A stretch of 49,424 nucleotides of DNA, from positions 1-49,424 of IMG/VR virus record IMGVR_UViG_3300036781_000805; one strand, given 5' to 3'. The notes under the pieces were generated by a model. That model was not told the origin of the DNA and made no database searches. It saw only the letters and a list, made by a program, of their open reading frames with translations. The stretch comes from a virus. The first letter of the stretch is position 1. The number at the start of each line of letters is the position of its first letter. Shown one piece after another: positions 4,681-13,147 of this stretch. The translations under genes and the position numbers were made by a program.

Positions 4681-5017
4681 TTGATGCACCTGAGGGGGTG
4701 GAGAGCACGGCGCGGGCACGGCGAAAATTGCGCAGGGGCAGTGTCGCGCCGAGCACATCGAAGTCCCGCCAGACTTGGAAAGTATCGTCTTCCGCATCGG
4801 TGTATTCATTTGCGATCTCTGCGAACGGCTTCAGCGCTTCCCGTGCCTCTGCCAGTTGCGAGCGAAGGGCTTCGATGGTGTCGGCGGCTTCGGCAGCGAC
4901 CGTGACATGGATCACGCGAAGACCGGGGTAAAGATCATCGCGCGCGGACGCCCCAACGAGCCGCAGTCGGTCGACGATATCCTCGCGCGACCCGGCGGGG
5001 GCTTGGTGTTCGGTCAT
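4673..5017 (-). CDS. Small coiled-coil early protein
   Basis: 114-aa protein of unknown function. The start at 5017 is fixed by TAGGAGAAACCCC immediately upstream. After a proline/glutamine-rich start it has AADTIEALRSQLAEAREAL followed by KPFAEIANEYTDAEDD, a heptad-like helix ending in an acidic turn. This arrangement is common in small phage early proteins of the Ead/Ea22-like type, but I cannot assign the family. It is followed by the Lar-like gene with an eight-base overlap. Confidence 0.6.
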   Translation of the reverse strand: MTEHQAPAGSREDIVDRLRLVGASARDDLYPGLRVIHVTVAAEAADTIEALRSQLAEAREALKPFAEIANEYTDAEDDTFQVWRDFDVLGATLPLRNFRRARAVLSTPSGASNG

Positions 5018-5027
5018 GGGGTTTCTC

Positions 5028-5450
5028 CTAGAAGTCCGTTTCATAGACGCCGTCGATAGGACTGAATTTGCGGATTTTGCCGGTGGCGCGGCGCTGGGGA
5101 TCGGCCGTTCGAAACCCGCCGGCCTTCTTGCTCTTGATGCCGTGAACGGCCGCGAACTGGCTGCGCTCTTTCGTGCGCGCCTGCGCCTCGGCGGCCGTCT
5201 TGATCTGGTGGCAGGGCTTTTCGTGGATGGCCCGCAGATTTTCCTCACCATGCACACCGCCGTCGATCAGTGGCTTGTCATGGTCGAAGGCTTTGGCCTG
5301 ACCCGCCCGGATCGGCTGACCGCAGTCGGGGCAAATGATGATGCCTTCGGCGTTCATCTGCCGCTCAAGGATATGGCGCTGCACCGACACCGGGATGGCC
5401 TGATCGTCGTGCTTCGCCACCCATGGTTCGGACTTGCGGCTACGAGGCAA
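5028..5450 (-). CDS. HNH endonuclease
   Basis: 140-aa HNH nuclease. CPDCGQPIRAG provides the zinc-binding CxxC, followed by AFDHDKPLIDGGVHGEENLR (the HD/H and N of the motif) and ekPCHQIKTAAEA. The C-terminus ends with basic GIKSKKAGGF-type residues as in phage HNH proteins. No ATG fits; TTG at 5450 includes the conserved WVAKHDDQAIP stretch and overlaps the preceding gene by 11 bases, as is usual in this operon. It cuts DNA in known relatives; whether it is a free nuclease or homing type is unclear. Confidence 0.8.
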   Translation of the reverse strand: MPRSRKSEPWVAKHDDQAIPVSVQRHILERQMNAEGIIICPDCGQPIRAGQAKAFDHDKPLIDGGVHGEENLRAIHEKPCHQIKTAAEAQARTKERSQFAAVHGIKSKKAGGFRTADPQRRATGKIRKFSPIDGVYETDF

Positions 5451-7967: not shown

Positions 7968-8281
7968 TGCGTGAGGCTCTTGAACGCGAGGATCGCCGCC
8001 TCGGCACTCCGCCACTTCGGATGGGCTGCCCGGTCAAGAACCAGCTCGGCGTCGGCGGCGCGGCTCGCTCGCAGCATCGCAAGCGCTTCCTCGACGAATG
8101 GGCTCAGGTCGTCCGGGTCCTTCTCCCGGTCGCCAGGCTTGTCGGTGAGCAGCACCTTCGCGAGCTTGAGCCGCTCGTCATGCCCGAGCGCGCGGCGCAG
8201 GTGCTTCGAAAGCTCATCGAGCCCGATGTCGCCGAGCACGTCGTCGATGTCGACCTTCGCTTGAACGTAGACGGTCGTCAT
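7964..8281 (-). CDS. Acidic early protein, 105 aa
   Basis: Unknown function. Mostly helical and acidic: DIDDVLGDIGLDELSKHL, then a REKDPDDLSPFVEEALAML stretch and a C-terminal RSAEAAILAFKSL helix. Coupled on both sides by ATGA overlaps in the leftward operon. Confidence 0.65.
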   Translation of the reverse strand: MTTVYVQAKVDIDDVLGDIGLDELSKHLRRALGHDERLKLAKVLLTDKPGDREKDPDDLSPFVEEALAMLRASRAADAELVLDRAAHPKWRSAEAAILAFKSLTQ

Positions 8282-8541
8282 GACGCCGCCCCCTCTCTCG
8301 CACGAACCTCATCTAGGAGATTGACGGCGGGGTCGGCCTCGTACTGCGTGCCGCAGAACGGGCAGTACGTGGGGAAGGCGAGGGCCGTGCTGCCGCGCTT
8401 CTTGCGGTCGATCTTCTCGACGGCGATGGTGGGCAGCACGTAGCTGGGCGAGCCGTCGCGCGGGAAAGCGAATGTCACTGCGATGCGGGTGTTGTGCTCC
8501 GCAAGCTTCGCGTCCATTTCTTCGATGCAGTTGCAGGCCAT
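8278..8541 (-). CDS. Small zinc-ribbon protein, 87 aa
   Basis: Begins MACNCIEEMDAKLAEHNTRI and contains TYCPFCGTQYE near the C-terminus, giving two CxC/CxxC knuckles that could bind one zinc. This family of short zinc-ribbon proteins is widespread in phage early regions; function unknown. ATG at 8541 overlaps the upstream stop (TGATG); a GTG one codon earlier is also possible. Confidence 0.65.
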   Translation of the reverse strand: MACNCIEEMDAKLAEHNTRIAVTFAFPRDGSPSYVLPTIAVEKIDRKKRGSTALAFPTYCPFCGTQYEADPAVNLLDEVRAREGAAS

Positions 8542-9068
8542 CACGCGGCCTCATGGATGATGTTGGCCGGGGAGGTGATGGCTTCGACCGATGCCGCGAT
8601 GCGCCCATGATCGATGCCGCCCATGGCGGTGACCAGCGGATGCTCAGGTGCGGCGCGCAGAGCCGCAAGCGCGTCGAGCGCGTATTCTTCCGCGTCGCAT
8701 ACCCGGTCCAGTAGTTCGCGATGGGTGCGGAACGTGCCGAGGTCTTCGTAAGCCGCCGCGAGCGAGGCAATGGCGCCGACGTTGAGTGGAAGAAGCCTGT
8801 CGAGCAGGGCCGGGTCGCGCATCCGGCTGGGACGCTGGAACGCTGCTTCATCAGCCACCCACGCCCGCCGCACGTCCTGCGTCCGGTTGAGGTAGAACAT
8901 GAACCCGCCGACCACGGCATTGCCGCCGCTTGCCTTGTGCCAGAAGGCCGGGCACCCATTGGCGATGTTGGAGGCAGCATCCCGGATATCGGCGGCGTCA
9001 GTATTGTGGAAGGCCAAGGCAAGAGCGTCGATACGGGCGGTCGCGGCGATTACGGTGGAGGAGGTCAT
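8541..9068 (-). CDS. Early protein of unknown function, 175 aa
   Basis: No recognised domain. Alanine-rich, mostly helical: VIAATARIDALALAFHN at the start, CPAFWHKASGGNAVVGGFMF in the middle and a long helix around DAEEYALDALAALRAAPEH. It lies second in the leftward operon, coupled to the zinc-ribbon gene by a TGATG overlap. Confidence 0.6.
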   Translation of the reverse strand: MTSSTVIAATARIDALALAFHNTDAADIRDAASNIANGCPAFWHKASGGNAVVGGFMFYLNRTQDVRRAWVADEAAFQRPSRMRDPALLDRLLPLNVGAIASLAAAYEDLGTFRTHRELLDRVCDAEEYALDALAALRAAPEHPLVTAMGGIDHGRIAASVEAITSPANIIHEAA

Positions 9069-9082
9069 GGCTCAGGCCTCCG

Positions 9083-9361
9083 TCAGAAGTGCGAAGAGAA
9101 GGCGCGGCGCTCAGCGGCCATTTCGAGCCGGTGATCCATGCCAGCCTGCGCCCACACGCTGGCGATGCGGCGGTCGAAGTGTGCGAAGGGCAGCGCCGCT
9201 TCGACTTCGTCGCAGAGCGCGTCGAAGGCCTCGTCCACGAGGCCATTGCAGTCGTGGCGACTGACGCCGAAATCGCCCTCGCAGACCGACACGATGTCGT
9301 GCTCCAGGCCGCAGCTCTTGGCCTCGATCGCCAGCTTCAGCGCAATCTTGCTCGGCTTCAT
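9083..9361 (-). CDS. First gene of the leftward operon, 92 aa
   Basis: Unknown function; two cysteines and an acidic middle (DEAFDALCDEVEAALPFAHF). ATG at 9361 is preceded by ATGGAGAACGGGA, a usable ribosome-binding site. It is the first gene after the repressor-controlled promoter and operators at 9404-9456, so it should be expressed immediately on induction, the position where phages often place host-takeover or antitermination functions. No antitermination motif is evident. Confidence 0.6.
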   Translation of the reverse strand: MKPSKIALKLAIEAKSCGLEHDIVSVCEGDFGVSRHDCNGLVDEAFDALCDEVEAALPFAHFDRRIASVWAQAGMDHRLEMAAERRAFSSHF

Positions 9362-9403: not shown

Positions 9404-9432
9404 ATATTCGCGATAATCGCAAATACAGTCAA
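9404..9432 (-). promoter_or_regulatory. Putative left early promoter (PL)
   Basis: On the minus strand, TTGACT (9427-9432) and GAATAT (9404-9409) are separated by exactly 17 bases. The -35 is near consensus; the -10 is weak. Operator OL1 fills the spacer, so repressor binding would block polymerase. It faces the whole integrase-recombination operon. Confidence 0.6.
9407..9423. promoter_or_regulatory. Operator OL1
   Basis: TTCGCGATAATCGCAAA: two TCGCGA-like half-sites whose centres are 9 bp apart around a single central base. It lies between the -35 and -10 of the left promoter. The same 17-bp design recurs at 9440, 11414, 11439 and 11472. Confidence 0.75.
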
Positions 9433-9439
9433 TAGGTAA

Positions 9440-9456
9440 ATCGCGATAATCGCGAA
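9440..9456. promoter_or_regulatory. Operator OL2
   Basis: ATCGCGATAATCGCGAA, same 17-bp architecture as OL1, with its centre 33 bp from the OL1 centre, upstream of the left promoter's -35. The same 33-bp spacing separates the last two sites of the right cluster, which suggests cooperative binding on a fixed helical face. Confidence 0.75.
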
Positions 9457-9474: not shown

Positions 9475-9518
9475 CGAACGCTGCTATCCTGCGTCGGTCA
9501 GCACTTCCGCTGGCGCAT

Positions 9519-9549
9519 GAAAAAAGCCCGCCGGGTGAGGGCGGGCTTT
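9519..9549 (-). terminator. Rho-independent terminator of the lysogeny operon
   Basis: Read leftward, AAGCCCGCC (stem), a 6-base loop and GGCGGGCTT are followed by a run of T. It ends the repressor/BstA-like transcript just before the left operators and promoter, insulating lysogenic from lytic transcription. Confidence 0.85.
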
Positions 9550-9575
9550 GAGGGGGGGGTCGCTGGCCTTTTGGT

Positions 9576-10493
9576 CTAGTCTGCTTCTTTGTCATCCGGG
9601 CCCGTCAGGGCAACTTGAACCGATTGAGCCGCCGTAATGCTCAGCAGGCCGTCCTTCACCTTCTTGCTAAGGTAGCTGGGCAGCTTGTGAGGCAGGTAAG
9701 TTTGACGAGCCCATCGACGGAACTCGGGCAGCGAGTCCTCAGGGTAGGCATATATTTCTTGGGGATTCGATTTGGCCTGCGGGAAATAGTCGGGGTAGTT
9801 GTGCAGCGTTTTTATCCGCGACCCGAAGCGATCCTCGAACTTACTTGTCGACCAGTGGTCCGACCAGGTGCGCCCAACGCTGATGTCTGGAATGAAATGG
9901 ATGCCAATGCTCGCGCCCTTAATAATGAGCGTCGCGATCATGTCGGCGATCTCCTTAAAGACGATGAAATAGCCTTCTGGAAGCGCACCGTATGTGACGG
10001 TTATCCGGTCGCGAAACTGTCGCCATGCCAGATTGAGTTTTTCATTCGGATCATACCCAATGGTCGTGAGAATGAAGTCTCGAAGGCCTTTTTGTGCGAG
10101 CGCCCGAAAGCTCGTGACGGCCTGCTGTCGTATGTTAGGCCCGGCTTCAAAGGCGTAATATTCCAAGAAGGCCATGCATGCGGGAGCGGGGAAGGCGTTG
10201 TAACGCTCAGTCTCATTGTCAACGATTACATATGGTTGCGACGGATCGATGCCGTGCTTTTCGAGAAGCTCTGCAATTTTAGCTTCGCGGGGGCGAATTA
10301 TGCCCTCCGCCAATGCCGACGTGACCTGCACAATGGCTTTTTGATCAACGCCGCAAAAGCGAGCTAGGCCGCGGCCGGTAAGGTAAGGCATGCCGTCGCT
10401 GAAGACGCCCATGCCAATGCCATTTACTTCGACCTCTTTTTCGACAGCGAGATCGAGACTGAGCTGTTTCGGGGTGAGGAGCATAGTGGTCAT
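9576..10493 (-). CDS. BstA-like protein (candidate prophage-encoded abortive-infection factor)
   Basis: 305 aa. The N-terminal part (VNGIGMGVFSDGMPYLTGRG then LARFCGVDQKAI, about residues 24-55) resembles KilA-N/antirepressor-type DNA-binding starts, followed by YNAFPAPACMAFLEYYAFEA and ALAQKGLRDFIL. The C-terminal half has RFRDRITVTYG-like and LPEGYFIVFKEIADMI segments, then FGSRIKTLHNYPDYFPQ and LPEFRRWARQTYLPHKLP. This two-part layout and its place downstream of a prophage repressor match my knowledge of BstA, a prophage protein that aborts infection by other phages while its own phage is spared through a DNA element (aba). Base composition is visibly less GC-rich than the neighbours, suggesting separate acquisition. 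No similarity search was possible; an antirepressor or other superinfection-exclusion protein remains possible. Confidence 0.5.
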   Translation of the reverse strand: MTTMLLTPKQLSLDLAVEKEVEVNGIGMGVFSDGMPYLTGRGLARFCGVDQKAIVQVTSALAEGIIRPREAKIAELLEKHGIDPSQPYVIVDNETERYNAFPAPACMAFLEYYAFEAGPNIRQQAVTSFRALAQKGLRDFILTTIGYDPNEKLNLAWRQFRDRITVTYGALPEGYFIVFKEIADMIATLIIKGASIGIHFIPDISVGRTWSDHWSTSKFEDRFGSRIKTLHNYPDYFPQAKSNPQEIYAYPEDSLPEFRRWARQTYLPHKLPSYLSKKVKDGLLSITAAQSVQVALTGPDDKEAD

Positions 10494-10539
10494 GTTAGAT
10501 CAATTCTCCTTTAAAAACATGCATTTAATATGAGGAGCT

Positions 10540-10740
10540 TCACTCCTTGGTGGCGTCCCGCATCCGATAGACCGGGATCGACTGAACTTCACGAAACCCG
10601 ATAGCCTCGAGCACCGCATCTGCCGCCGGCAGGTAGCTCTCCCACATAGGCTTGCCTTCGAAGGTGGTGTCTTCGGGATTTCCGTCGTGGCGGCATAGTG
10701 CGCGGGCGGCAAGTTCGCGGGCGGGCTTGGGCTGCTTCAC
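10540..10740 (-). CDS. Small protein of the lysogeny operon, 66 aa
   Basis: Begins MKQPKPARELAARALCRHDG and contains EGKPMWESYLPAADAVLEAI, a motif seen in small phage proteins of unknown function. ATG at 10740 overlaps the repressor stop by four bases, so it is co-translated with the repressor and likely present in lysogens. Confidence 0.65.
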   Translation of the reverse strand: MKQPKPARELAARALCRHDGNPEDTTFEGKPMWESYLPAADAVLEAIGFREVQSIPVYRMRDATKE

Positions 10741-11405
10741 AGGTCCACCACCACTTTCCGAACACGACCGACGATGACGATATCCCCTTCGACCACGATT
10801 GGGTCGTGGTCATCGTAGCTAAACGGCCGAAGCCGAGGTGGATTGCCAGCCCCGTACCTCTTGAAAGTTGCAGCGCCCGTGTCGGGATCCTTGAAGACGT
10901 AAAATGCTTGATCGACAGGGTGTGTGTCGGCGCGGTTGAAGACAATAGTCGAGCCGTCCGGCGCGACCTTGTTCATGCTGCTGCCCGTTACGACCAGGGC
11001 CGCCCAATCTCCCTTGCCGAGATCGGATATGACGATGTGTCCGTAAAGGTTTCGCGGGTCGGTAACTGCGTCAGCAGTCATCATCTTCCCCGCTGGCACG
11101 TCGGAAAAGATCGGCACGCTCCTCGCCGCGCCGCCCCCTCGTTTAGATGGTACGATTTTCGAGGCATCGAGCCAATTGAGCATCCCTTCAAAGCCGGGCG
11201 GTAGCTCGCCAAAGAACCTTGCGGCGGCCTCGATCATCTGCAGAGGAATTTCTTGCCGCTTCTTCGGATCGTCGGTCTCGAGGTTCCGCATCCGGCTGAT
11301 CTGGGTCGAGTTGAATCCGCTCGCGGCCGCCAGCCTGGCCTTTATGCCGTGCGGCTCGGTCTTCTCGTAAAACCAACGTTTTAGGTCGATCTGCGGGTCA
11401 CTCAT
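10737..11405 (-). CDS. cI: CI-type repressor with S24 (LexA-like) peptidase domain
   Basis: 222 aa. N-terminal helix-turn-helix (residues about 20-45, GIKARLAAASGFNSTQISRM) that would bind the 17-bp operators. The C-terminal S24 domain has the cleavage site in DVPAGKMM (Ala-Gly), the catalytic serine in VTGSSMNKVAPDG and the general-base lysine in ATFKRYG. All elements for RecA-stimulated self-cleavage are present, so the prophage should be SOS-inducible. Start at 11405 is 9 bp from the nearest operator, so autoregulation is likely. It heads the leftward lysogeny operon. Confidence 0.9.
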   Translation of the reverse strand: MSDPQIDLKRWFYEKTEPHGIKARLAAASGFNSTQISRMRNLETDDPKKRQEIPLQMIEAAARFFGELPPGFEGMLNWLDASKIVPSKRGGGAARSVPIFSDVPAGKMMTADAVTDPRNLYGHIVISDLGKGDWAALVVTGSSMNKVAPDGSTIVFNRADTHPVDQAFYVFKDPDTGAATFKRYGAGNPPRLRPFSYDDHDPIVVEGDIVIVGRVRKVVVDL

Positions 11406-11413
11406 GCCGCATC

Positions 11414-11430
11414 ATCGCGAAAATCGCGGA
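11414..11430. promoter_or_regulatory. Operator OR (repressor-proximal)
   Basis: ATCGCGAAAATCGCGGA, 17-bp paired-hexamer site immediately upstream of the repressor ATG. Binding here would be expected to autoregulate the repressor. Confidence 0.75.
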
Positions 11431-11438
11431 TAGGTCAT

Positions 11439-11455
11439 ATCGCGAAGATCGCGAA
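11439..11455. promoter_or_regulatory. Operator OR (middle)
   Basis: ATCGCGAAGATCGCGAA, 17-bp site with centre 25 bp from the repressor-proximal one and 33 bp from the cro-proximal one. Confidence 0.75.
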
Positions 11456-11461
11456 TTTGGC

Positions 11462-11491
11462 TTGACCAATAATCGCGAATATCGCAAATAT
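11462..11491 (+). promoter_or_regulatory. Putative right early promoter (PR)
   Basis: TTGACC at 11462-11467 and AAATAT at 11486-11491 with an 18-base spacer (CAAATA with 17 is the alternative). The cro-proximal operator fills the spacer. Transcription would start at about 11497-11499, essentially at the cro ATG, so the transcript may be leaderless. Confidence 0.55.
11472..11488. promoter_or_regulatory. Operator OR (cro-proximal)
   Basis: ATCGCGAATATCGCAAA, 17-bp site located between the -35 and -10 of the right early promoter. Its arrangement mirrors OL1 within the left promoter. Confidence 0.75.
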
Positions 11492-11496
11492 CCGAA

Positions 11497-11733
11497 ATGC
11501 GCGATGAAAAGCTCGAACCGGCCCACAGTGTGATCCAGACGTTCGGCGGCTTCGAAGCCGTCGCGAAGATCACCGGCAAACATATCTCCCGCGTCTATCG
11601 TTGGACCTACCCAAAGGCCCGCGGTGGCACCGACGGATTCATCCCGCAGACCGACGCGGAGAAGCTGCTGGAGCATGCTCGCAAGCTCAAGCTGCCCATC
11701 ACCGCCGCCAACTTCTTCCGAAGCGCAGCATGA
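11497..11733 (+). CDS. cro: Cro-like repressor
   Basis: 78 aa, divergent from the S24 repressor across the operator cluster, the standard Cro position. FGGFEAVAKITGKHISRVYR is a helix-turn-helix of the YdaS/Cro type (glycine-initiated helix, IxGxxxSxVxRW), followed by IPQTDAEKLLEHARKLKLPI, the third/fourth helices. No Shine-Dalgarno precedes the ATG (ATATCCGAAATG), consistent with a leaderless message. It should compete for the TCGCGA operators and favour lytic growth. Confidence 0.8.
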   Translation: MRDEKLEPAHSVIQTFGGFEAVAKITGKHISRVYRWTYPKARGGTDGFIPQTDAEKLLEHARKLKLPITAANFFRSAA

Positions 11734-12142: not shown

Positions 12143-13147
12143 ATGGCCCGCACCGTCAATTCCGACTCCGTCGCCCAAGACCAGCTTCGCGCCTTCATCG
12201 ATCGCATCGAGCGGATGGAGGAAGAAAAGAAGGCCATCGCCGACGACATCAAGGAAATCTACTCGGAAGCCAAGGGCAACGGCCTCGACACGAAAGTGCT
12301 GCGGCAGATCATCCGGATTCGCAAGCAGGACCATGCCGAGCGCATGGAGCAGGAAGCGCTGCTCGACCTCTACATGTCCGCGCTCGGGATGCAGGTCGCG
12401 CCGCGCGACCGCGACGATGACGACGATGAGCCTGCGACGCGCCGCGCGAACCTCAGCAGCGAGCGTGCGCCATCGGTCGCCGAACCTTCTTTGCACAATC
12501 CGCAAACAACCATTCGACCGGATAAGCCGGCCGATACGGACGACAGAGGGGCGCACGCTCTGTCGTCCGGTTCCAATTCCGCCATCCCCCCGGCGGACCA
12601 GACGATGGGGGGTGCGCCCCCCGCGCTCTCCGTCGTCGACCAATCCCAGAGCGAAAGCAACGAAGGCAAACCCGTGGGGCTGAGCCCGTCGGCGGGCGGC
12701 GAGACGGATGGAGTTGCGAGTAGGGCGAGCGTCGGCGCTGGTACCGACGCGTTCAATTCGGCTGACGAAAGCCAGCCCCTGCGCAGCGGTAGAGAAGAGG
12801 CATCTCGCCTGGCTCATAACCAGGAAATCGCGGGTTCGAGTCCCGCCCCTGCAACCAGTTCCCAAGCCCCAAGCATCGCGAGCGTAAATGCACCGCCTCA
12901 GTCGGTCGCGAACGATGCCAACGCAGGAGGCGATGATGATCGAAGGCTGAGACCCATGACCGGCGGGGCAACTAACGAGGCCTCGCCGGCGCCCTCCTTC
13001 TCGTCGAAACCACGCGATGGCGTCTACAGCGCAGATTGGCTGCGCCGGCATGGTCACTGCCAGCAGCTCGATACGTGCGCCGTCGAACCGGGCCGTCTGT
13101 GCCGCGAATGCTCGCTCGCTCTCGCTGCGACGGCGGTGGAGGCATAG
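12143..13147 (+). CDS. GapR-domain (DUF2312) protein with long disordered middle and Cys-rich tail
   Basis: 334 aa. Residues 1-85 match GapR/DUF2312: [20 protein letters not shown], then [20 protein letters not shown] and [20 protein letters not shown]. GapR binds overtwisted DNA as a clamp in alphaproteobacteria; family members are about 80-90 aa, so this protein is unusually long. Residues 90-285 are low-complexity, acidic and serine/proline-rich. This middle contains an in-frame tRNA-like sequence (12779-12857) translated as [18 protein letters not shown]. The C-terminus has cysteine pairs ([17 protein letters not shown]). Whether the full length is one functional protein is uncertain. Confidence 0.7.
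12779..12857 (+). other. tRNA-Met(CAT)-like 3' portion embedded in the GapR-domain gene
   Basis: From about 12808 the sequence has an anticodon arm CCTGG-CTCATAA-CCAGG (anticodon CAT), a T arm GCGGGTTCGAGTCCCGC and an acceptor 3' strand CCCCTGCA ending in ACCA. The 5' part has a D-arm-like GCGCAGCGGTAGAG but carries about 12 extra bases. The expected 5' acceptor strand (TGCAGGGG) is replaced by CAGCCCCTGC, which cannot pair. It therefore looks like a tRNA fragment, not a working tRNA. It could be an attachment-type remnant or a captured tRNA piece. Confidence 0.6.

Follow-up and report, generated by a model that had tools for sequence, protein, structure and literature searches.

A BstA-family gene with a candidate self-immunity element in a viral genome, and a 56/57-bp repeat geometry at bstA loci

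The viral record IMGVR_UViG_3300036781_000805 (49,424 nucleotides, analysed in full and hereafter the window) carries in its lysogeny operon a gene for a 305-residue protein, which sequence comparison identifies decisively as a full-length BstA homologue. Two direct repeats around the start codon have the spacing of the essential repeats in the aba self-immunity element of Salmonella phage BTP1. With a probability of about 0.8 we conclude that the protein is an abortive-infection protein of the BstA family, made from the repressor transcript, and that the DNA between and including the repeats is its own aba, read by BstA and sparing the inducing phage. A wider proposal seems to us fairly probable, namely that at many BstA loci, in distant hosts and even beside transposase genes, the aba 'password' consists of two locus-specific copies of a repeat 56 to 57 bp apart that the cognate BstA reads, so that the repeat sets immunity. 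The features of the locus are listed in Table 1.

Table 1. Features in and around the bstA locus of the window.
Feature	Position	Strand	Basis or remark
bstA, 305-aa BstA-family phage-defence protein	9576..10493	-	PADLOC and PHROG profiles; BTP1 alignment
Candidate aba self-immunity element, 64 bp between two direct repeats	10475..10538	-	Around the bstA start codon
Repeat copy 1, GCTCCTCA	10531..10538	-	Upstream of bstA, just past the stop of the 66-aa gene
Repeat copy 2, GCTCCTCA	10475..10482	-	In the bstA coding sequence, from +12
66-aa ORF, repressor operon	10540..10740	-	No family match
S24-type phage repressor (CI-like)	10737..11405	-	Pfam PF00717 Peptidase_S24, E = 5.3e-07; PHROG 4 transcriptional repressor, E = 3.8e-12
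78-aa ORF, divergent cro position	11497..11733	+	Position only; no PHROG match
Right operator cluster, three 15-bp sites	11415..11487	.	11415-11429, 11440-11454, 11473-11487
Left operator cluster, two 15-bp sites	9408..9455	.	9408-9422, 9441-9455
Hairpin 3' of bstA, probable transcription terminator	9523..9549	-	10-bp perfect inverted repeat, 7-nt loop

The PADLOC BstA profile (PDLC02356) matches the protein with an E value of 1.8e-109 over almost its entire length, and PHROG 6287, 'BstA abortive infection system, replication inhibitor', does so with 2.4e-86 and is covered nearly whole. By tblastn the BstA of BTP1 is 40.5% identical over 97% of the length, and homologues in Pseudomonas, Klebsiella and E. 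coli phages share 34 to 49% identity. Homology to proven BstA proteins extends through both domains, and alignments of 109 to 114 diverse homologues contain 13 to 14 invariant columns, distributed over both. The reading frame is intact with an ATG start. Searches of Pfam and NCBIfam gave zero matches. The initial annotation, made from the letters alone, had called the gene BstA-like, and the two profiles together with the similarity to BTP1 BstA confirm that call.

The gene lies in a lambda-like immunity region, in the slot that bstA occupies in BTP1. Five operator-like palindromic sites form two clusters, a 19-bp pattern having six matches in the window against 0.03 expected by chance, and between the clusters the leftward order on a single strand is S24 repressor, 66-aa ORF, bstA and hairpin. 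In BTP1 and an E. coli prophage bstA stands directly 3' of the repressor, with a similar order in a Klebsiella phage; such a place in the lysogeny region of a prophage, after the repressor, is typical of BstA, not universal. Gene order and the Peptidase_S24 match thus uphold the initial annotation in placing the gene downstream of an S24 repressor in a leftward lysogeny operon. A terminator had also been noted there. A perfect 10-bp hairpin does follow the bstA stop and a short T run can be read on the minus strand, whereas a simple terminator scan did not call it. The G+C fraction is 0.51-0.58 over positions 9500-10550; it is higher on both sides, 0.64-0.67 at 8000-9200 and, past about 11,600, mostly 0.62-0.68, so the description of the gene as less GC-rich holds.

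The aba of BTP1 is a 63-bp DNA element extending from 29 bp upstream of bstA to 34 bp inside it, with two CCCGCC direct repeats at its ends, and a single-base change in either repeat abolishes immunity (Owen et al. 2021, PMC8585504). According to the same account aba is cognate, each BstA needing its own; one aba was mapped, and the E. coli and Klebsiella loci, also cognate, are left unmapped in its main text (PMC8585504). The BTP1 repeats are 56 bp apart from start to start. In the window a direct repeat of no more than 8 bp, GCTCCTCA, has exactly two occurrences in 49 kb; they bound a short piece of DNA at the 5' end of bstA and are likewise 56 bp apart. With the position and a spacing of 56 or 57 preset, 15 of 20,000 dinucleotide shuffles equalled this pair. 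Copy 1 lies upstream of an in-frame stop that precedes bstA and is non-coding for bstA, and the context of copy 2 is GCTCCTCACC, with CACC at the 3' side. By this analysis the element probably exempts the phage that carries it from its own BstA, and it falls where an aba-like DNA had been anticipated, in or near 10400-10560.

Is this geometry peculiar to two phages? From viral contigs, genomes, phages and plasmids 201 bstA loci were collected, and 193 of them, anchored on the conserved MGV codon, formed 115 clusters of less than 80% identity. Exact direct repeats of at least 8 bp have a spacing of 57 in 35 of these clusters and of 56 in 14, compared with a mean of 0.36 clusters at other spacings, where the single further peak, eight clusters at 27, is attributed to repeated codons of the coding part. 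At the expected position and a spacing of 56 or 57, repeats of at least 7 bp are present in 61/115 clusters and repeats of at least 10 bp in 23/115, against 1.09 and 0.04 expected from random stretches of the same loci. The blind search passed a positive control, returning the proven BTP1 pair (CCCGCCA at spacing 56). Copy 1 mostly lies 112-131 nt before the MGV codon, and repeat-positive fractions are alike in viral sequences (33/56) and genome collections (31/57). The repeat itself varies by locus, with classes that include AAGGAAATCACC, CAGGCCGCC, GGTCACCACC, CCGCGCACC and CCCGCCA; a 3' CACC is common to many and the 5' part is variable. About a quarter of clusters (32/115, scoring 5 or less) have no clear 56/57 pair, so that either the geometry is not universal or aba has been lost or changed at those loci. 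The bstA of an E. coli prophage (L290), 72% identical to that of BTP1, has just the 6-bp repeat CCACCA at spacing 56. No account of an aba geometry shared across the family turned up in the searchable literature, which took in a minority of subscription papers and no preprints.

Other features of these loci deserve mention. Some of the 57-bp class, such as L040, L094, L098, L105 and L107, possess a third conserved block, ATCAAnnnnTTAg, midway between the repeats; its counterpart in BTP1 is AATCAAATGGTTA, and in the window ATCAAnnnnTTAg is not evident. In two related loci (L018 and L019, about 4990-5040) the inter-repeat DNA seen in their relative L017 is gone, one repeat copy is left and the bstA start codon is lost; bstA carries an early stop as well. 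From the sequences this looks like recombination between aba repeats. In many distant hosts a co-directional transposase gene stops some 170-320 nt short of the MGV codon of bstA, and the repeats lie in or near the gap. An IS1595-type transposase is found at L014, L015, L058, L098, L103, L104, L107, L115 and L120, and also at L046, L059 and L065; an IS1-like transposase lies upstream of bstA at L052 and L076. It may be that bstA also travels as a transposon passenger carrying its own aba.

Repeat similarity tracks BstA identity, with rho values of 0.31 for the N-domain and 0.29 for the C-domain, whereas similarity of the spacer does not track N-domain identity (rho 0.01). In a partial Mantel test the partial rho values are 0.20 and 0.18 for the N- and C-domain, respectively, and because both are significant the two domains are not separable as the reader of the repeat. 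The repeat geometry suggests how cognate BstA-aba pairing could be encoded.

On the model that we favour, the resident prophage would make BstA from the repressor transcript. By extension from BTP1, BstA would gather on the DNA of another phage once lytic replication of that DNA begins and would block it, and the infected cell would yield no progeny. On induction of the prophage, the aba pair on its own DNA would disable the cognate BstA and so spare the phage. Recognition of the GCTCCTCA pair by BstA could most simply proceed via the KilA-N-like domain, and the switching-off step could be sequestration, allosteric inactivation, or autorepression combined with titration.

An alternative that we regard as rather unlikely is that the pair serves chiefly as an operator for autorepression of BstA, self-immunity being a by-product of many copies titrating the protein. 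The repeats do straddle the bstA start codon, and the BTP1 aba supplied in trans is reported to require high copy, a single chromosomal copy being insufficient (PMC8585504). Against this, some 20 loci of the 57-bp class have their sole in-frame ATG upstream of copy 1, so that both copies may be translated and the pair sits within the gene, not at its start. In addition, the discussion by Owen et al. has the induced prophage escaping from the first copy on (PMC8585504).

The same class raises a second alternative, that the family repeats reflect repeated peptides or codon constraints and not a DNA element. Both copies of the 57-bp class can fall in one reading frame and encode identical peptides, such as KEIT ... 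KEIT or QQAA ... QQAA. In the 56-bp class, however, which includes the window and BTP1, the copies are out of frame, and copy 1 of the window lies before the in-frame stop. Codons are identical in 106/114 same-residue pairs, a count biased by the selection of exact repeats. Among close relatives identical changes in both copies were seen in 5 of 27, too few events to weigh. The BTP1 aba appears to work as DNA and tolerates changes of reading frame (PMC8585504). We therefore judge a coding origin very unlikely and retain the DNA element as the preferred reading.

The initial annotation had further supposed that the co-operonic 66-aa protein might modulate BstA. The ORF is in the bstA operon, directly upstream. 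In another phage (L202, 2213-4229), however, an S24-like repressor ORF is followed by a homologue that is 81-82% identical, and after it come not bstA but RelE/HigB-like and HTH ORFs, named by sequence reading rather than profiles. BTP1, the E. coli prophage and the Klebsiella phage have no gene in the corresponding slot. Since the L202 homologue accompanies a repressor without bstA, the small protein is not BstA-specific and is unlikely to be a dedicated modulator; that it modulates BstA at all is highly improbable. The slot after the repressor in L202 looks as if it holds exchangeable defence or toxin-antitoxin genes.

The least credible proposal is that the gene is no defence gene and encodes a common antirepressor or a KilA-N protein with a regulatory role. 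Antirepressors do appear among the fold-level matches of the BstA model, but BstA profiles and proven BstA proteins match over the full length and no antirepressor profile was found in the Pfam, PHROG and NCBIfam searches. The AlphaFold model, for which two alignment rows from plasmid records were left out, is confident (pLDDT 91, pTM 0.66). Its viral fold matches are mostly antirepressors of phages and proteins of the KilA-N and Bro-N kind; only two of these reach an E value of 0.001 or below. The N-terminus is homologous to residues 32-147 of BTP1 BstA, the KilA-N-like domain; the antirepressor-like N-terminus of the initial annotation survives as this weak fold-level resemblance and not as a Pfam match, which is absent. 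Searches of the PDB by sequence and by fold gave no significant solved structure for BstA. Deinococcus DdrC was considered as a relative and set aside, the fold resemblance being too weak for use.

With respect to the phage itself, a search with the tape-measure protein found no close relative, and gene similarities of the window are to alphaproteobacterial phages. The host group is best indicated by a DUF2312/UPF0335-type gene at about 12180-12426 (+), at the start of ORF 12143-13147, with 68-77% DNA identity to alphaproteobacterial phages. ARAGORN calls a tRNA-Met (cat) at 12782-12857 (+), within the reading frame of this 334-aa ORF; because the call lies inside the frame, either the true end of the ORF or the tRNA is in doubt. 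The tRNA could be an attachment-site relic.

How does each BstA tell its own prophage from a rival that carries another BstA? The question has stood since 2021. If it is the repeat that decides to which BstA a phage is immune, then specificity becomes predictable from sequence. From the 56/57-bp geometry, bases that may determine specificity can be predicted at about 65 distinct BstA loci and are testable by repeat swaps, and a phage blocked by BstA could be expected to gain exemption by carrying matching repeats.

Comparison with known systems places the window as follows. At the profile level its BstA shows no difference from PADLOC PDLC02356 or PHROG 6287. KilA-N/Bro-N phage antirepressors bear a distant fold resemblance to part of the model; unlike them, the protein has a BstA C-terminal domain, its gene is in the lysogeny operon and it matches none of their profiles. 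Phage lambda has in rexAB a phage-exclusion gene on the repressor transcript, between the repressor and the left operators. The likeness to bstA of the window is by position alone, and we know of no cognate DNA immunity element for RexAB. The closest parallel is the BstA-aba system of BTP1, with a homologous full-length protein, the same slot after the repressor and repeats flanking the bstA start. The two differ in the repeat (CCCGCC in BTP1, GCTCCTCA in the window), in the start of copy 2 relative to the start codon (about +29 and +12, respectively) and in the extra 66-aa gene between repressor and bstA in the window. The window gene adds a member to the known BstA family, and the repeat rule is the new part.
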